Shown here: in pieces, positions 10,525 to 38,201 of the stretch
Numbering within the stretch: position 1 is the first letter of the stretch
Layout of the letters: each line of letters begins with the position of its first letter
Assembly (NCBI GenBank): GCA_001599295.1
Contig: BCGN01000004.1
Coordinates: 310,346-374,345 of the forward strand
DNA: 64,000 nucleotides
Direction of reading: 5' to 3'
Source: Sporopachydermia quercuum
Taxonomy: Eukaryota > Ascomycota > Sporopachydermiomycetes > Sporopachydermiales > Sporopachydermiaceae
The notes under the pieces: generated by a model
Told to the model about the DNA's origin: nothing
Database searches by the model: none
The model's input: the letters and a program-made list of their open reading frames with translations, nothing else
Translations under genes and position numbers: made by a program

Positions 10525-11823
10525 CTACCCGACAGGATCTGTTTCATCGACAATAATCTCCTCCGGCTCTAACGCTTCTGGCTGATCAAGCCACAAAAAC
10601 CTAGCTTCGAAATATCGAGCAAGAAAAGCGAGAATAATTAATACAGGGATTTCAATCAATGGGCCAAAAGTGGCTGCTATGGCCTCTCTGCTACCATTTC
10701 CATAGATAGCTATAGCAACAGCTAAACTCAACTCAAAATTGTTAGATGCTGCAGTGAATGTCTGTGTGACAATCTCACCATACGGGGCTGAGCAATACTT
10801 CTCAAGCCCATTAAATCTTCTTTTCCTGGAAGATTCTTCTTCAAATTTTGCACGGTTTTTTTCACAGCCACATTCTCTATAGTACGAGTCGCTTGATTCA
10901 TCGTCTAACTGGATGAACCTCCTGCCATATAACCATCTCAACCCGAGAAAGGTTGCGAACCAGACCAAAACAAAATACAAAATCAGGGGGACAAAACATC
11001 TGAAAGCTAAGCCTATTTCGTGTACGAATTCGTCACCTTTATCAATAAATAGAGCAATGATCGTGTACAACAATCCAATGAGTCCAAAGGGAGAGATTAT
11101 TGGTATCAGTTTTTTGTTGTATACTCTCTTACCTAGTGTTTGAACCCCAACAAATCGAATCAAGAAACCTAGCACCATAGGAATACCTAAAAAGAATGCG
11201 ATGGTCTGAGCCACGGTAGTATAAGCGTTTGAAGCACTGGTATAGTTATTTGACCCGTCGCTACCTCCCAAAATGTCACAGAACAAAATCTTATATGGAG
11301 CAAATAAAACTAGCTGCAATATGCTGTTGATTATAACTAAAATAGAACATAGCTCTGGATCTCCTAATGCAATTTCATTCCAGATCAACACCATAGCTAT
11401 ACATCTAGCAATCCCAATGAGAATTACTCCTACCCTATACTCGTCCAAGTCAAATAGGGTTAACCAGGCTAGGCCCAGCATGATGACGGGACAAATGACC
11501 CAATTCAAAATCAAAGAGACCACAATTTTTTCTACTCTGTCTTTCCTCAGCAGCAAACTCTTGCTATGTTCCCATTCTACTTTACATAAAGGCGGGATCA
11601 TCATCACAATCATTCCTATAGCTAGTGGTATTGAAACATTAATGACAACCGTCCCTTGGAAAGCTTCATGCGAGGATGGAACATAAACTGAAATGATGAT
11701 CCCAAAAGTAATAGCGCATATGATCCACAAGGGCAGAAGTTTATCCACCCAGGATAATCTGTGAAATACCTGTTTAATAGTACTGCTTTCGTTCATATTG
11801 GCTGTTGAAGTTTCTTCTATCAT
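10525..11823 (-). CDS. ARR3: Arsenite efflux permease, ACR3 family
   Basis: Plasma-membrane transporter of the bile/arsenite/riboflavin superfamily that exports arsenite (and antimonite in some fungi). 432 residues from ATG at 11823; yeast Arr3 is 404. About ten hydrophobic segments are spread along the protein. The family signature ARCIAMVLIWNEIALGD lies near residue 139 and contains the Cys known in yeast Arr3 to be needed for transport. Also visible: WVICPVIMLGLAW and, near the C-terminus, NNFELSLAVAIAIYG with a conserved Glu. A charged Cys/Arg-rich cytosolic loop (around residues 310-345) is longer than usual. No ARR1 or ARR2 neighbour is present, unlike the yeast ARR cluster. Confidence 0.95.
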   Translation of the reverse strand: MIEETSTANMNESSTIKQVFHRLSWVDKLLPLWIICAITFGIIISVYVPSSHEAFQGTVVINVSIPLAIGMIVMMIPPLCKVEWEHSKSLLLRKDRVEKIVVSLILNWVICPVIMLGLAWLTLFDLDEYRVGVILIGIARCIAMVLIWNEIALGDPELCSILVIINSILQLVLFAPYKILFCDILGGSDGSNNYTSASNAYTTVAQTIAFFLGIPMVLGFLIRFVGVQTLGKRVYNKKLIPIISPFGLIGLLYTIIALFIDKGDEFVHEIGLAFRCFVPLILYFVLVWFATFLGLRWLYGRRFIQLDDESSDSYYRECGCEKNRAKFEEESSRKRRFNGLEKYCSAPYGEIVTQTFTAASNNFELSLAVAIAIYGNGSREAIAATFGPLIEIPVLIILAFLARYFEARFLWLDQPEALEPEEIIVDETDPVG

Positions 11824-26000: not shown

Positions 26001-26072
26001 AGCTCCACACGGGACTCGAACCCGCAGTCTTCGGCTTAGGAGGCCGATGCCTTACCTTTTGGCCAATGGAGC
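26001..26072 (-). tRNA. tRNA-Arg (anticodon CCU)
   Basis: Read on the minus strand: acceptor GCTCCAT pairing with GTGGAGC, D arm GCC...GGC, anticodon stem TCGGC/GCCGA around loop CTCCTAA (anticodon CCT), T arm GCGGG TTCGAGT CCCGT. Total 72 bases with no intron. It decodes AGG. The discriminator base reads T. A T-rich Pol III terminator follows. Positioned between RNH1 and TAF9. Confidence 0.95.
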
Positions 26073-26380: not shown

Positions 26381-26972
26381 ATGGAGCACGACAGAGAAAC
26401 CTCCATACCAAGAGATGTTCGTCTGATTCATTTGATATTTATGCAGTTAGGCATAGATTCGTTTCAAGAACATGTTCCATTGCAGATTATGGATTTTGCT
26501 CACAGTAAGTGTGATTGATTAGAATATCAGTGCTTCAAGCTGACTTCTTACTACTAGCGACATTGGCTCTTACTTTTTTTTTTGCCTTGTTGCACACATA
26601 TATTTTCTACTCCATCACTCAACTCAGTACGTATACTAACTAACCAATCCTTCAATAGGGTACACTCATAGTATACTAGCTGATGCTATATCTTATAATG
26701 AACATCGAAATAATACGTCACATTCTCATACAAATCCTCCTTTGAATTTGGAGGACGTGAGATTGGCAATTGCTGCAAGGACCAACTATCAATTTACTCC
26801 TGCTCCACCAAAGGAACTATTAATGGAAGTTGCAAGTGAGAGAAATAAGAGACCTTTACCACCTGTGATTCCTGGCTGGGGAACTAGATTACCACCAGAG
26901 AAGTATTGTTTGACTGCTAGAGAATACAATGTAGATGAGGAGTTGGAAGAAATGCAAGGAGACGAAGAATAA
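26381..26972 (+). CDS. TAF9: Taf9, TFIID/SAGA subunit (2 exons)
   Basis: Histone-fold subunit shared by TFIID and SAGA, pairing with Taf6. Exon 1 26381-26504, exon 2 26659-26972; intron 26505-26658 (GTAAGT; TACTAAC at 26634; AATAG). 145 residues (yeast 157). Exon 1 supplies SIPRDVRLIHLIFMQLGI and QIMDFAH; the junction gives HRYTHSILADA, as in the TFIID31 family. Exon 2 contains DVRLAIAARTNYQFTPAPPK, the conserved linker and AARTN motif, and ends in an acidic tail. The upstream in-frame stretch before 26381 has no family match and was excluded. Confidence 0.93.
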
Positions 26973-27574
26973 CGGATCTGAAAATAGTAAAAGAAAGGAA
27001 AGGAAGGAAGTAGATATAATTATGAGAATTGGATAATGTCAGAGTGGTATGTTTGATTGCCCAAGGGAGACTCCCTCCCTTTCTGGAGTTGTCCTGGTAA
27101 GGAACCTGTAACCTGATAAGACCTTGTATATTATGGTGTTTTAGACATTATGAAATAATAGATTTATTCATACTAAATTATCATGTTAGTATGTCTTGAG
27201 AAGTATGTCTAGCACAGTATAAAAAGGCGTTATGTATTATTTCCTTCGAAATGTTATGATCTCGACCCCCATTTGCTCTGTTGAGAGCAAACCATTGCTA
27301 TCCAAATAGTTGCGAGAATGAGAATCCCCTTTCTAAACGATGCCAAGAAGGCAATAGCACCGATAAATGAATCCATCTACTACAAGTTTCTCACCTATTT
27401 GCAGATATAAAAATTAGCTTTCTATTACTGATGTTACCTTAGTGGACCTAATATGTGAATAAATGAGTGGTAGCGAAGTGTCCAGAGTCTGCAAAGAATG
27501 CTCACCGAGTACCCCGGTTATCATAGGAAAACATTGTCGTTTCACGGGGCGTCTCAAGTCTCTCTTGTGCGCAC
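26973..27574. other. Intergenic, TAF9 / quinone oxidoreductase 3' flanks
   Basis: About 600 bases. The first 500 are AT-rich yeast sequence; from about 27490 the base composition turns GC-rich, as in the next gene, so the foreign segment probably begins here. Confidence 0.5.
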
Positions 27575-28381
27575 TCATTCCTGCGTCGACTCCTCAATAT
27601 GCAGAGCGAACCCGCGGGCACCAGGCGATTCCAGACCAGGTTTCAGTTCCATCGTCGGGATCTTGTAGTCGCCGCCGTTCTGTTTCCGGTATGGTATCGG
27701 GGCCACTGTTGTCAGCGTGTGCATACGTTCGCGGAGTTGTTCAGCAACGACCTCGAAGCTTGCTTCGTCCATTCGATCTGCCTTGTAGGCCACAAAAGGG
27801 GGAAGGACTGTGAAGCCGGGATAGAAAAGCATGCCGTGATTGATGGGAAACAGCAGATCTTCAATCCTACCGTTGACACCGCGCTCGGAGTAATGCTCGG
27901 GCCAGCCACCGGCAGTGACAATCAGCATTGCGCGCTTGCCCGTCATTTCGCCCTCGCCGTACCGGTCGCCCCAGCGACTATTGCTGTGTTCACCGATGCC
28001 ATATGCAAACCCACAGGCATAGACACGATCAATCCAGCCTTTGAGTATCGCGGGCATGGAAAACCACCATAACGGGAACTGGAGGATCACCACATCGGCC
28101 CAGCGGAGCTTGTCCTGCTCGACCTTGACATCCTCCGTGAGGCCGTTCTCCGCGAATTCTTTTGACGATGCGGAGCCAACAAGCAGTCGTTCCTCGGAAG
28201 ATACATGCGGAAAGTCGTCCCGGTCGACGGTCGCTTTCCAGTTCATGGTATAGACATCGGACACCTTGACATTATGTCCTTGTGCCTGCAGTTCTGCAAT
28301 GGCGACATCGAGTAAAGCACCATTGAGAGAGTGTCTTTCGGGATGGGCAAAGACTATCAGGACATTCATCGTGGAGGTCAT
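27575..28381 (-). CDS. Bacterial-type NAD(P)H:quinone oxidoreductase (flavodoxin fold)
   Basis: FMN/FAD-dependent quinone or nitroaromatic reductase of the NQO1/KefF/YhhX-type flavodoxin-like family. The frame extends upstream from a GTG; the first ATG is 28381, giving 268 residues, normal for the family (NQO1 is 274). Visible: NVLIVFAHPERHSLNGALLD at the N-terminus (flavin phosphate-binding loop), VILQFPLWWFSMPAILKGW near residue 93, GWIDRVYACGFAYG, and VTAGGWPEHYSERG. The gene is strikingly GC-rich: two sampled 60-base lines (27901, 27961) are 65% and 57% GC, whereas the host FRQ1 line 38101 is about 37%. No intron, complete frame. This and the bacterial-looking protein suggest horizontal transfer; alternative: assembly contaminant. 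Whether it is expressed is unknown. Confidence 0.85.
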   Translation of the reverse strand: MTSTMNVLIVFAHPERHSLNGALLDVAIAELQAQGHNVKVSDVYTMNWKATVDRDDFPHVSSEERLLVGSASSKEFAENGLTEDVKVEQDKLRWADVVILQFPLWWFSMPAILKGWIDRVYACGFAYGIGEHSNSRWGDRYGEGEMTGKRAMLIVTAGGWPEHYSERGVNGRIEDLLFPINHGMLFYPGFTVLPPFVAYKADRMDEASFEVVAEQLRERMHTLTTVAPIPYRKQNGGDYKIPTMELKPGLESPGARGFALHIEESTQE

Positions 28382-30150
28382 CCTGTCCTGGTTTATACGA
28401 AGAAAAAAATCAGGGAAATTCAAAACAAAGTGTTCAACTACGCCGTTTGAGCTATGCACTATGCTGTTGGCAACAGAAGTCTATAATGTATATCGCTTTC
28501 TGATTTGTTTTGAGGATTCTCCTTCTGAGTTTCGCTACAAGTCAAAGCATAACCATTTAGGAGCTGGCTGAAATCCTGACACTATATATAGACCAATATA
28601 CTTCTAGAATATATATCAATATCGCAGGTTTAACATAGCTACTGATATAAGTATAAACATATATGCCTAATTTTCAATCCTCTTACTATTGCAGCAATGC
28701 CGTTTGGAATCTGCTGGATCACGTTACTCCAGAGCTACATATGAAGCAGGAACAGTTATTATTAAGTTTCATGGTGACATGAGATTGTGTACTATTGTTG
28801 AATAACTTCTACTTGGAATGGAGTACTATCAATATCAACAAAAATGACATCCATTAGTAAGCAGAATGAATGCGTCATAGAATGGCTGAAACACTAGCAT
28901 CGCGTATAGGAATACCGGGGCTGTACCAACTAGTTAAGGATTGCTACATATATGGCAAGGTAGACTAACAGAAAGCTCACTATTCCTGAATGACCAATGA
29001 TTATTTGATTTGGTCTGTTTAGACTATAATTACATCGAGCAATGGGTTACTAATCGAAACCTCGTTCACCGTACAGATAACCATCTCAAGCATACCACTA
29101 GGCAAACACTTATAGTTGATTAGGTAATCATCCTTCACTATATTGATATTATTGTATTTTATTGTTGCATTATAATACCATAATGTATGGAGTTGATTAT
29201 ATTGGTTAATATAATGGCGTTACAATTACAATTACTATTACTATTACTATTGTCAGTAAATTCCTCATTAAAGGACAGTACTTCTTTATTCCTTCAAATT
29301 CTACCGATATTTTATAACTTCCTTCTCACTCACTTTTCTACCGAATCTTACAATTTCTGCTCCAATGATGAAATCAAAGAACAAGTAAAGAAAAAAAGCA
29401 ACTTTTGTCTGAACATTCAGAAGCAACTAATGAAAATCAATTAAATTCATGGAAAATAATTATTAAGAATGACAATAATATATACTCAGGTTTCATGAAT
29501 CGTCTCTGTCACATGTATTAATGCTATTCAGTTATTGTCTACTAAGCATGAACTATTGGATCATTGACATTTGAACCGATAGTTATTTTTCATTATTCTC
29601 TTGAAAACCCTTCGGACGACGTTTCGATCAGCTTTCTTTCATTAATAGATTAGTTTGGCTGGATGGAAGTGAAAAGAATAATTCATTAAACAAAAAACTT
29701 GTAATGATGAATGTATGAATAAATAAATACCGGCTGTAACCATTGTTGCCGCATGGAATAATGATGATACTGGTGTTCTCCCTTCCAAACTTTGTGGAGT
29801 ACTAATTTATGTCGTTCTTGATAAATCATATAGCTCAGACAATCATATCATACCTCCCAACAATCATTTGAATAAATCATTCAATTTATTATACAATTCT
29901 CCTGCATAATTTAATAATACAATACATAACATAAGATAATAATTAACATACCAGATAACAAGCAATATTAATATTAGATGCGGAGCTCTAGAGCTGACTT
30001 CTGATATCTTAAACTCGACTTTTATTCCTCCATCCTTTAATTTCCGTCTACTTAATCTTCGATTCACCCATAGCTCATATCACATTACTTTAACTAAGTT
30101 AAGTGGATATTGCATTGCAACTCATGTGTATACATTAGTTGTCAGCCTTA
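28382..30150. other. Gene-free stretch between quinone oxidoreductase and MYO1
   Basis: About 1.8 kb. Immediately upstream of the ATG the sequence reverts to AT-rich. A short tandem (TTACAA / TTACTA) repeat lies at 29220-29252. An 85-codon open frame at 29187-29444 is largely made of this repeat. A minus-strand membrane-like frame (29864-30067) begins at GTG after a stop and has no ATG. No gene is supported. Confidence 0.45.
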
Positions 30151-33100
30151 TTAAATAAACACTGGCTCTGAAGATAATGAAGCTTCATGATACCGTACTT
30201 TCCAGTCTTCAATCTCCTTTTCTAAATTCAACACTTTGTCATACATATCACGTTTCTCTCTTTCTAAACGTTTAACATCAACTTCCAATTGCGTTTCCGA
30301 AGAGTTCAAGCCTTCGATTTGGCCAATCAGTTGTTGGATTTTTTCCTGTTGTTTCTTTGTCAATTGGGCCAATTCAACTGCATCTTTGCTTTTCAAGCGA
30401 GCTAAATCCTCAGCTTGTTTCAACTGTAAGTTCAGTTGTTTCACTACCGAATCCCCTTTCAGCCTCTCGGTTTCTAATTCCTGAATTTGGATTTCCAGCT
30501 CGCTTACTTTACCCATTCGAGTCTCGTTGCCGGTTTCCAGTTTCTGCTCCAGATCTTTCGCATGCAATTCGAATGCCTTGCATTTATTACGAATATCCTC
30601 CAATTCTGCCTCGGCAATACATTTATCTGTCTCCAGCTCAAAATTCAGCTTTTTCGTTTCATCGAGCTGCTGCTTCGTTGTTGAAAGATACTTTGCTGCT
30701 TCTAAAAGCTTGATTTTGATTTCATCATAGTCCAATTTCTTAGTAGCAAGTCTTGTTTCCATCTCAGTTAGTTTCTGCTTACAAGAATCCAATTCTGATG
30801 TTAATACTTTACTCTGGTTTTCATGTTTGTTTGATAGTTCATTCAACTGTCGTTCTAGATTTATTTTTGCTTCGAGGAAATTATCTCGTTCATCAGAAAC
30901 GTTTTTCAGGGTTTCTTTTAGATTAGTAACATTGCCTTGTAGTTTGAGAGCTTCAGTTTGCTTTTCCTCAAGCAGTCGCTGATCTTTCACGCCGCCAATT
31001 TTCAGGCTTGATACTTCTTTCTTGAGTTCTGTTTCCTGTTGTTTAAGCTGTTCAATCAATTTATAATGAGACGCTTGGATTTCTTTCATTTTAACGACTT
31101 CTTCAGTGTATCGTTCGAGTTCCTGTTTACAAGCTTGAAGTTGCTCCTCTTTTTTCAATGCCATTCCACGTTGCTGATCTATCTGCTCTTTTAGCGATTG
31201 CATAGTTGAATTCGTAGACACTTGGAGATCAACAGATCTCGCGTTCTCAGATTGGACCTGTCCTTTAAGGAAATCTCGTTCTTGTTGTAACTGGGACACA
31301 GTATACTGTTGATCGTGCAGCTCCTGTTGTACTGTTCGTAGTTCCTGGCTGAGAGTTAGCAGCTCGGCTTCTTTATCTTTACGCTGGGCTTCCGATTCGT
31401 GATAATCTGACTGAAGGTCTTTCAGTTGATTTTTGAACAGCTTTTCCGTTTTTTGAGTCTTGAGAATAGCTAGTTCTGCTGCTTCTAGGCGAGAGTAGAA
31501 GTCAGCTGCTCGTTCTTTGTATAGCTTGGTTGTTATTTCCAGTTCTTCATTCTTCGATTTCAAGGCTTCCAATTGGACCAATAAATCATTGGTTTTACTA
31601 GGAGAAGACATCTTTCTAGGAGAAGATGGGATAGTAGTGAAAGAGGATGAAATAGTAGAAGATTTTCTGGACAGTATTTCCTGTTGTTGCTTCCGACTTG
31701 TTCTCGTAGGACTGTTATTAGGAGAACTTCCTGGTTTTATTGCAAGCTTTCTTTCTGCTAGTATATGTTCACGAATATTGCTCTTCATTGTATTGTTGTT
31801 ATCAGTATTGGTACCGTCATCACGAACATCCCACGAGAGTGTTCTTGTTGACTTGGATCTCTGATTCTGGTTGCTAACAAATGACGAGGGAATAGAAGAA
31901 GCAATAAACTGTTGGAATTGCTTTTCTAGCTTTTCATATTTTTGTTTATACGTTTGGGCTGTTTGCTCATCACTAGAGACATTAGTAAAAGAAGAATTGC
32001 TGCTATTACTCATGCTTCGATTTAACTGAATAGTCAACTCTTTCAGCTTTTGTTCTAACTGCAGGTTTCTTGTTCTCAGCTCTTCGTTCTCTTTACCAAA
32101 GCTTTCTTTTCTATTGCTATCCACATCTGGCGTTGTATTCTGCATGTTATCATATAGATGCTTGTCGGTAAGTATATGATTTGCCTTATGGGAATTATTC
32201 GCTAAGACAGTGGAGGTTTCATTCTTCTGCTTTTCATTTTCCTTGTCTAATTCAGCTTCTAAATCAATGACCTCTCTCTGCAATATTTCCACTTTTTCTT
32301 CCAGTTGCTTTCTCTTCTTTTCATGTTCTACTGGTATTTTCTGAAGTTGAACGTTTAATGCATCTATATCTTGCTTCAGGTTGGCAATCAACTCATCCCT
32401 GAAACTTAATTCAGCTTGGAGCTGTTTCCGCAATGATCTGATCTCAGCTTCAGCCTGCTTCAGCTTTCCTTGAGCCAACTGCTCGTTCTGCTCCTGTTTC
32501 GCACGATGATTCTCTTTCTGCTGCAGCTCTTCAACTTGATGTTTTAATTTGGACTCTTGTTCTGCTTTGTCTTTGATAACTGCAGCTTTCTGCTCTAGCA
32601 AAACATAGTTTTCATCTTTAAGCCTTTGCAATACATTACTTACTTCCGAATACTGCTGTTGTAGCTCTTTTACTTCGTTGTTCAAGGCAGTACAGTTTTC
32701 AGTTTCAGCCTTCAGTTTCTTCCGCAGCTCTGTTTCAGTATCAAGCTGTCGTTGGAACATGGCTTCTTTATCAGCAAGTAGTCCTTCTTCAGAAATCAGT
32801 TTCTGATTGAGCTTATGAACCTCCATTTCTTTCTTTTTATGTTCTAGTTTAAGTTTTTCCTGGTGGTCCTGTAGATTAGCTAGGCGCTTTTCTAGCTTCT
32901 TCACTTGCATAGAAGTAGCCAATGAGCCATTGGCTCTATTGGAGTGCACCAATGGTTTTAGTTTCACATATAGAGACCACCATTTGTTGTTTTCTAGCTG
33001 CTTATACTTTTCTATGCTTTCGGCTATTGTTTTCACGGCATATACTTTCCTGAGCTTAGTTTTAATGACCTTTCGGGCTAAATAACCTCTGACAAGATAC

Positions 33101-35601
33101 TGGAACTTCTGAACGCTTTCAGTGATCATTTGGTCTCTGACTGCTTCTAAATCTGCTAAAACACCATTTTTGAAAAATAGTTTGGTTAAACCTATCATGT
33201 ATAAAGATTGGTCTAAATCTAGAGACTTCAGGATGATCTCACAGGCTTTACGAGACTCTATGTAGCCTCTTGGAAGGTTGGCCGTCAAACAACCATAACG
33301 TGCTTTGAATACTGAGAAAGGAACTCTGTTAGGGAACCCAGTTCTAGCGATACGAATACCTTCTAGGACACCATTGCATCTCAATTGGTCTAAAATGAGC
33401 AGATTGACAAACTTCTTAGGCCTTTTATCTCTATTAGGGACAATACAACGAACAAAATAAGGTGTAGTTTCGTTCAGCTGGGTCATAAGTGCGCTCAATT
33501 CTTCTTTATGCCTTTGAGCAACCGTTCTTAATGTGGGTCTCCGTTTTGCCGAATAGAGAAAATTATTGTTCGATGTGTGCTTGGTATTATTTCCGGCTTG
33601 GTTGCGAAATTCAACAGGCTCATCATTTCCGAAAAGTCGCCGAACAAACTTATTATTACTTCCGGAAATTATCCCAAGTAGATTTTCACTTAAACTGTCC
33701 TTATTTCTCTCTATCCATCCTTCTGTTGAATATTCTACTTTCCCGGCATAATGAACAACTGTGAATCCTTGTGTGAATTTATTAGCTTGAAATTTATTGT
33801 TTCTTCCTTCCCATAGTTGACTTAGTTTGTTAGCAAAGGAGTCATCATTTCCGTTAGGTACAACACATTCTTCATCTAAACAGGAAAAGATACCAACTGG
33901 AGAATTCTTTTCAATCAAATCGATTGTAGGCTGTAAGTCGTTTCCGAAATCTATATACTTCCATTCAATGTTTTCCTTTGCGTATTCTTCTTGTTCTAGA
34001 ACAAACACGTGATGATTGAAGAACTGTTGAAGCTTTTCGTTAGTGTAATTAATGCACAATTGTTCAAAGCTATTTGTTTGAAAGATTTCAAATCCTGCAA
34101 TGTCCAAAACACCTATAAACGTTACTGATTCTTGGCTTCTTACTAAGTTATCATTAATTATTTCAACAAGAACTCTGAACAGTCTTTCGTAAAGTGCTTT
34201 TGCTAAAGCGTCTACAGCTACTCTTGCTTGAACTGCGGTTCTTTGCTGATTCACCCATTCTTTGCCTGCTTTCACTTTTGGATGTAAAATAGCTTTCTGA
34301 AGTACATCAACGGATTCAATACCCAAAACATGACAAGCCTTCTCCAAGTCTGATGCATCTTCGATTCTAGCTTGGCCCTGTCCCTGCGATTGCGATTGAG
34401 CACTCTGAGTTCCCAATCTATTGCCTATGATTTTAGTATTCCCTAGATGGAGTATACCCGCTAACACTTTGAATATATTGGCTTGATCCTGAGACGAAAA
34501 GTTCATCAGATTGAAAGCTTTGAATAGTTTCTGAAACTCCTTTTTATCGTCTACTCCTTGAATCTTAAAATTGCCGTTCTGCAAGTACTGGAAGCGTGAT
34601 AGTGTCTTGAGACCTTCATCTTCTCCCAGAAGAAGGTCTTGACGTGTAGCTTGATCAATTCCAGCGAGCATTTGATAGAATATATGATAATTACGTTCTC
34701 CATTGTTCTGGACAATAACTCTTGATTTCTCGAGCAAATACCAATCAATAGTAGCACCAGATATTTTTCCCACTGAGGAAAACTCCAAGCGGATAAATTT
34801 ACCAAATCGCGAAGAGTTATTGTTTTTAACGGTTTGAGCATTTCCAAAGGCTTCTATAATAGGGTTCGCTTGTAGGATCTGGGTTTCAAGGCTTGTATCT
34901 TCCGTAGAACTGCTAGTAATACTAGTTAAGTATTGAATAACTTTTTTCGTGTTTTCTGTTTTACCTGCACCAGATTCACCAGTGATTAGAATTGATTGGT
35001 TGTCTTTGTTCTTTACCATAGTTCTATACGTTAGATCAGTTAGAGCAAAAATATGGGGCTCTGTTTCTTCTTTCTTGCTGTTTCTATACATTTGGATAGT
35101 TTCTTCGTTATATATGTTAAGCTTGGTGTAAGGATTGACCGCTACTAAGAATATGCCCGAGTAGGTATATATTAGATCATCCTGGTACCTTGTGAATAGA
35201 TTGTGGAGTACTGATGGTTCATTTAGATATGTCAACTCTGCCATATCTCTTGCATTTTTGAACTTTGGAGGATTCACTTTGTTTAATGTGAGCATATCAA
35301 CGTATTTTTCCTGAAAACAATGTTAGTATTCTATAGATCTATAAGCAGCCCCATTGGAATTCCTAGTACTGAGTTCAAGTAGAACCTTCGTATGTTAAAA
35401 ATGAAATTCCATATGGTTACTTACTTTACTGTTTTCGCATCTTACTAATGCCTTCTGAATTTCTTTATTATCCGAATCGTAGATTTGATTACTGTTTGGA
35501 TCCTTTACTAGGTACCCTTTGGTGAATTGGCCATTGGGCTCAGAAACCCAAACCCATTCATGAGTAGCAAATTCTGCTGCTCCACTGTCATCAGACTGCA
35601 T
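30151..35601 (-). CDS. MYO1: Class II myosin heavy chain (2 exons)
   Basis: Motor of the cytokinetic actomyosin ring. Exon 1 35425-35601, exon 2 30151-35310; intron 35311-35424 (GTAAGT, TACTAAC, TTTCAG). The junction gives ENSK|EKYVDMLTLNKVNPP. About 1778 residues (yeast Myo1 is 1928). SH3-like N-terminus (WVWVSEPNGQFTKG), P-loop GESGAGKT near residue 171, switch I NNNSSRFGKF, switch II DIAGFEIF and LRCNGVLEGIR. The neck has one IQ-like stretch (FQYLVRGYLARK) and then WWSLYVKLKPL, the class II head-tail junction near 829. The remaining 950 residues are mostly coiled coil with a Ser/Thr-rich break near the middle; no DIL globular tail, so not a class V myosin. The acceptor-like TTTACAG just before ATG 35601 may mark a further upstream intron. 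Confidence 0.95.
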
Positions 35602-37628: not shown

Positions 37629-38201
37629 ATGGGTAAAGCAGCTTCAAAACTCTCCAAAGATGATATTCAAAATCTCAAACAAATGACCTATTTCGATAGA
37701 AAAGAGCTACAACAATGGTACAAAGGTTTTTTGAAAGACTGTCCATCTGGTGAATTGTCAAAAGAAGATTTCCAACGTATATATAAGCAGTTCTTCCCGT
37801 TTGGAGACCCAACTGCGTTCAGCAACTACGTTTTCAATGTGTTTGACAGTGACCATAACGGATCAATCGACTTCAAAGAATTCATAGTTGCTCTTAGTAT
37901 CACGTCAAGAGGATCATTAGAAGAAAAACTTACATGGGCTTTCCAACTATATGATTTGAACAGTGATGGTAAGATAACATACGATGAGATGTTAGCGATA
38001 GTGACAGCTATATATAAGATGATTGGATCAATGGTTCAGATGCCAGAAAACGAATCAACGCCTAGTAAAAGAGTTGACAAGATCTTTGGTAGTATGGATA
38101 AAGATAAGAATGGTGAATTGACCTTTGAAGAGTTTAGAGAAGGTGCTAAGGTTGATCCTACCATTATATCAGCACTCAACTTATATGATGGTTTAGTTTA
38201 G
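37629..38201 (+). CDS. FRQ1: Frequenin / neuronal calcium sensor 1
   Basis: N-myristoylated Ca2+ sensor that activates the phosphatidylinositol 4-kinase Pik1 at the Golgi. 190 residues, the exact yeast length. Starts MGKAASKLS (N-myristoylation signal). EF-hands 2, 3 and 4 are intact: [12 protein letters not shown] near residue 73, [12 protein letters not shown] near 109 and [12 protein letters not shown] near 157; EF1 is degenerate as in the family (DCPSGELS). No intron. Convergent with COQ7. Confidence 0.98.

Follow-up and report, generated by a model that had tools for sequence, protein, structure and literature searches.

Does the GC-rich, bacterial-type quinone reductase gene found in the AT-rich DNA of a yeast record a natural transfer between domains, or a contaminant joined into the contig during assembly? 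The original prediction had favoured a recent horizontal transfer with little amelioration. We address this question here from the composition of the locus, the kinship of the gene and its encoded protein, and the context in which the gene lies.

A single GC-rich island between two host genes

Maximum-likelihood segmentation of the window (the whole 64-kb stretch of DNA analysed) identified a sole outlier, a GC-rich island of 927 bp at 27465..28391 (no strand assigned, GC 0.548), which would be the transferred segment. Its log-likelihood ratio is 64.0, compared with at most 9.8 when 64 kb were simulated 100 times under a first-order Markov model, and with 8.2 for the runner-up segment. This second GC-rich segment spans tRNA-Arg (CCT), at 26001-26072 (-). 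The island is 55% GC versus 36% for the window, and the DNA flanking it on both sides is 33-35% GC. The sharp switch of composition initially noticed is thus recovered as a single island, and the lines sampled at the time gave the same values (0.567 and 0.65 in the gene, 0.367 at position 38101); the boundaries proposed at about 27490 and 28385 were roughly right, the true left edge lying ~25 bp further out and the right edge ~6 bp. The island lies in one contig, its edges contain no gap and the letter N is absent within 10 kb of it. The repeats found between 26900 and 30200 are all short and imperfect (14-24 nt, 73-93%) and do not bracket the island, and a mobile element or flanking repeats at the island edges were rejected on this ground.

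The island carries an NQO1-type NAD(P)H:quinone oxidoreductase gene at 27575..28381 (-). As predicted, the frame is complete and intron-free, with 268 codons (268 aa) and zero internal stops; translation may start at 28381 or at a second ATG, at 28369, which is also where the homology with bacterial DNA begins in most of the rows listed. The GC content of the gene is 0.550, whereas 614 windows of the same length taken outside it average 0.363 (sd 0.023, max 0.435). Similarly, its GC3 of 0.63 contrasts with 0.28-0.40 in 14 host ORFs and agrees with the 11 nearest bacterial rows, which span 0.58-0.79. Downstream of the gene, a non-coding 3' flank of ~110 bp (27465..27574, (-), GC 0.52) may be a remnant of donor DNA; among the best 25 rows, no blastn match extended more than 3 bases beyond the stop codon.

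The left host neighbour is TAF9 (TFIID-31kDa), with its last exon at 26664..26972 (+), and the right one a MYO1-like type II myosin heavy chain gene, which we take to be MYO1, with its main exon at 30151..35295 (-). Both are eukaryotic genes in which introns are recognizable by eye, in the myosin with the signals GTAAGT..ACTAAC..CAG. The window, a stretch of ascomycete-yeast-like genome, also encodes an ADE1-type SAICAR synthetase, COQ7 and RNase H1. An SBF-family transporter of host-like GC, presumably an ARR3-type arsenite exporter, is found at 10525-11823 (-). Comparison of the myosin and the ADE1-type protein with solved relatives showed 5 of 10 CTG codons facing leucine, 3 isoleucine and 2 phenylalanine, and none facing serine or alanine; the acyl-CoA oxidase ORF contains zero CTG codons. 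These 10 codons do not support a CTG reassignment in the host; as far as they show, CTG is read as leucine, so that the 10 CTG codons of the quinone reductase gene keep their meaning.

Two candidate exons were noticed around the island, a possible short first exon at 27037-27052 (+), which reads ATGTCAGAGTG followed by GTATGT, and, on the other side, a possible last exon after TTGCAG at 28695-28802 (+). If both belonged to a single host gene, its intron would contain the bacterial gene. We rejected such a split gene: the candidate exon at 28695-28802 has no Pfam match and weak PDB matches only, the best being a designed repeat protein (E 0.013).

A predicted flavoenzyme of the NQO1/NQO2 type

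The assignment of the protein to the quinone-reductase family was supported by a Pfam Flavodoxin_2 (PF02525) score of 180.1 bits, for a gathering score of 27, and by its predicted fold, which is that of NQO1/NQO2. The AlphaFold2 model (pLDDT 85.8, pTM 0.87; confidence is low at residues 127-129 and 139-143 and at the three C-terminal residues) has 4gi5 as its best solved relative, with a query-normalised TM of 0.89-0.90; human NQO2 and mammalian NQO1 come next (0.75-0.83 for the mammalian NQO1/NQO2 structures, rows 3-37). In 28 aligned rows, H13, P103-W106, W116, G158, G159 and Y164 are invariant and N170 nearly so; we take these to be the cofactor and active-site positions of NQO1/NQO2. For three other oxidoreductases, the NCBIfam equivalog scores remained below their cut-offs: KefF (99.8 bits, cut-off 210), PRK09739 (91 bits, cut-off 162) and KefG (74.6 bits, cut-off 240).

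Based on its fold and conserved residues, the product would be a cytosolic flavoenzyme that takes a hydride from NAD(P)H for the two-electron reduction of quinones, so that semiquinone radicals would be avoided. The yeast would probably benefit by tolerating quinones of plant or microbial origin, and related electrophiles, in the sugary plant and insect habitats that yeasts and acetic acid bacteria have in common.

The closest relatives found belong to acetic acid bacteria

The nearest relatives in the sampled genomes belong to the Acetobacteraceae (Gluconobacter, Acetobacter), with 81-82% amino-acid and 79% nucleotide identity, in line with the bacterial origin of the original prediction and pointing to acetic acid bacteria as the likely donor group. 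DNA homology with the best locus runs at 79% from 28369 to 27591, just before the stop codon. Among the matches listed, bacteria outside the Acetobacteraceae reach 70-71% identity at best. When 84,980 species genomes of bacteria and archaea were scanned, the top seven of the matches listed were all Acetobacteraceae (73-79%), Gluconobacter, Acetobacter and Gluconacetobacter among them. A class sample of 385 genomes gave 4 matches at E <= 1e-100, the best being the Gluconobacter japonicus genome that the other searches had already given, and 294 relatives of genome G084 yielded nothing closer; no donor above 82% identity emerged from the sampled genus, family, class and relatives genomes. A plasmid search had pointed to rhizobia and Azospirillum, whose plasmid-borne relatives are ~70% identical, and this candidate donor was displaced by acetic acid bacteria after the genome searches. 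A phage-carried insert was also rejected, the phage relatives showing 27-38% identity among the 10 of 17 records listed. Two viral contigs of IMG/VR (L086, L087) encode distant relatives (40% identity over residues 5-195).

Even in acetic acid bacteria the gene is patchy. At E <= 1e-60, a match was present in 35 of 397 Acetobacteraceae genomes, in 7/26 genomes of the genus of Gluconobacter japonicus and in 7/49 of that of Acetobacter papayae; one further genus had a match in 2/19 genomes at E <= 1e-100. The copies of the Gluconobacter and Acetobacter genera are also intermixed in the tree, and together these patterns look as if the gene had moved between the two. Two copies are interrupted (L132/L133 in G417 and L013/L092 in a Zymomonas MAG), one as two overlapping frames and the other by an in-frame TGA.

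Phylogenies were built from the bacterial relatives and the yeast protein. After removal of the interrupted, short-reading rows (L013, L092, L132, L133) and of 7 duplicates, 121 rows were retained for a quick tree; 45 of these and L134 made up the 46 rows of a more careful one. The quick tree places the yeast protein in a group of 34 acetic-acid-bacterial rows (itself included; SH-aLRT 100), some other Acetobacteraceae proteins falling elsewhere. In the careful trees, the yeast sequence lies among Gluconobacter and Acetobacter proteins in a 12-row group (protein, support 87/85), in a 13-row group (codon positions 1+2, 94/96) or in a 7-row group (all codon positions, 97/92). The careful protein tree has no starred group of up to half of the rows that contains the yeast protein, and the protein and DNA trees disagree on its exact sister. 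A topology in which the 24 core rows exclude the yeast sequence obtained AU p values of 0.056 (protein), 0.146 (codon positions 1+2) and 0.0045 (all positions), values that are generous because the core group was named after the first tree was seen. A narrower 11-row sister group without the yeast sequence was not rejected (AU p 0.44). No other member of the near group has an end branch as long as that of the yeast copy (0.33 in the 121-protein tree and 0.29 in the careful protein tree). Among the sequences compared, kinship with acetic acid bacteria is firm, and a position of the yeast gene inside the acetic-acid-bacterial clade is likely, not proven, being significant only with all codon positions.

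Absence of the LysR neighbour and a host-like upstream region

When the core acetic-acid-bacterial loci were checked one by one, a divergent LysR gene was found upstream of the enzyme gene in 24/24, with ~93-106 nt separating the start of its match from that of the enzyme; the adjacency is annotated as well in L001, L003 and L004. In a broader set of 133 bacterial loci (≥700 nt upstream, ≥200 bits; some contigs counted twice, L084 being too short), 101 have a divergent LysR gene and the 32 that do not all lie outside the 24-row core. No LysR gene is present in the 64-kb yeast window. Ahead of the start codon of the yeast-borne gene, AT-rich DNA takes over within ~10 bp, and the region at 28392..28700 (-) has a host-like GC of 0.34. 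By eye, two features that precede the start codon in this presumed promoter, TATATATAG and a T-run, resemble those of yeast promoters. The host-like AT-rich sequence presumably drives expression of the gene.

Time since the probable transfer

Little amelioration has occurred, as initially proposed: the GC3 of 0.63 remains within the 0.58-0.79 of the nearest bacterial rows and the 3' flank is still 52% GC. In a decay sketch with an assumed host equilibrium of 0.33, a shift of GC3 towards the host value would be visible already after modest change. Among the unique substitutions of the yeast copy, compared with 11 bacteria, no host-type AT drift was detected: the GC>AT:AT>GC ratio is 29:6, versus 108:29 pooled in the bacteria (p 0.81), and the synonymous:nonsynonymous ratio 18:25, versus 88:73 (p 0.17). 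The yeast copy is in this respect indistinguishable from its bacterial relatives, and we abandoned host AT drift as a clock. Of the claim that the transfer was recent, what stands is the support from composition; this support gives no date, and the nearest sampled bacterium differs at 18-19% of residues. Such a difference implies either that the donor species is unsampled or that part of the change arose in the yeast, and most of it probably arose in an unsampled donor lineage. The donor-like composition, which extends to the ~110 bp of the 3' flank, suggests a short residence, and we infer that the stay in yeast has been short.

Origin of the gene

The data lead us to consider that a real transfer from a bacterium to a yeast, direct or via another fungus, very probably took place, and that a direct, relatively recent transfer of this redox-stress enzyme from an acetic acid bacterium is its probable form. 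Approximately 0.9 kb of acetic-acid-bacterial DNA, with one gene and ~110 bp of its 3' flank, would have entered a CTG-leucine ascomycete yeast and come to lie between the TAF9 and type II myosin genes, whose 3' ends converge. The bacterial LysR switch is absent, and host-like AT-rich sequence precedes the start codon and would drive expression. Whether the transfer was caught unusually early, as could be read from donor composition in both the coding sequence and the 3' flank next to host-type sequence upstream, we regard as a tentative and rather doubtful proposal.

A passage through a second fungus, yeast or filamentous, which would have received the gene from an acetic acid bacterium, with this yeast obtaining it from that fungus or from a yeast ancestor, would fit the long end branch of the yeast copy and has a precedent in the yeast-to-yeast passage of FFZ1 from the W/S (Wickerhamiella/Starmerella) clade to Zygosaccharomyces (PMC11140947). 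We nevertheless consider such a relay unlikely: the non-coding flank, with its 52% GC, can have spent little time in AT-rich hosts. Somewhat less likely still is an assembly chimera, in which the yeast contig took in DNA of an acetic acid bacterium growing in the same culture. A fully donor-like composition with no host-type drift would also fit a contaminant, but two false joins would be needed 0.93 kb apart in one host intergenic gap, one of them near the start codon, and at edges with no N or gap nearby. The adjoining LysR gene, carried by all the core loci, would have to be lost and, the best match being 82% among the genomes searched, the contaminant would be an unsampled species. Vertical inheritance of a yeast gene with unusual GC is scarcely credible; we found nothing in its favour and rejected it on identity and composition. 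The closest relatives among the sequences compared come from one bacterial family, at a DNA identity of up to 79%, and GC3 is 0.28-0.40 in the 14 host ORFs measured against 0.63 in the gene.

If the direct transfer is real, a redox-detoxification gene joins the acetic-acid-bacterial genes known in yeasts, and, being closer to its donors than the W/S-clade cases, it would show its insertion edges and the way expression was gained at first hand, where long decay otherwise leaves inference. If it was indeed caught early, the locus would count among the youngest natural transfers between domains that reached a yeast, and the gain of a eukaryotic promoter by a bacterial gene could be followed there.

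Comparison with known systems

At the level of the enzyme, the closest known systems are the LysR-linked NAD(P)H-dependent oxidoreductases of acetic acid bacteria (Gluconobacter japonicus L006, Acetobacter papayae L007 and G412/L128), which are of the same fold family and length class and 78-82% identical over nearly the whole protein. The yeast protein may differ from them by a 4-residue N-terminal extension (MTST), and the yeast locus by an AT-rich upstream DNA in place of the LysR neighbour of the bacterial loci. The putative quinone reductase of Klebsiella pneumoniae (4gi5) matches the yeast-borne protein over nearly its full length with 58-59% identity; it comes from another bacterial lineage than the acetic acid bacteria and its annotation is putative. 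Human NQO2 and NQO1 share with the yeast-borne protein the fold, the FPLxWF..PAILKGW stretch and the GG and Tyr positions, and its Asn is as in the 'VNG' of NQO2. Identity is 39-41% to NQO2 and 28-35% to NQO1; the NQO2 match ends at residue 231, leaving the C-terminal 37 residues of the yeast-borne protein as an extra segment, which has no sequence match to NQO1 either.

At the level of the event, the kind of transfer and the donor family are already known in yeasts, and the close donor match is the noteworthy part. In the titles and abstract openings of a literature mostly without subscription papers, we did not find this gene described as a yeast acquisition. Among close to 600 xenologs reported in three W/S-clade yeasts, the investigated cases are all less than 70% identical to their donors (PMC13376923), whereas the gene described here reaches 81-82%, a closer donor match. 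Wickerhamiella/Starmerella yeasts also carry Acetobacteraceae-derived ADH1 and SUC2 (PMC5897096): these two genes exemplify the same kind of event and the same donor family as the quinone reductase transfer, with a different gene (PMC5897096).
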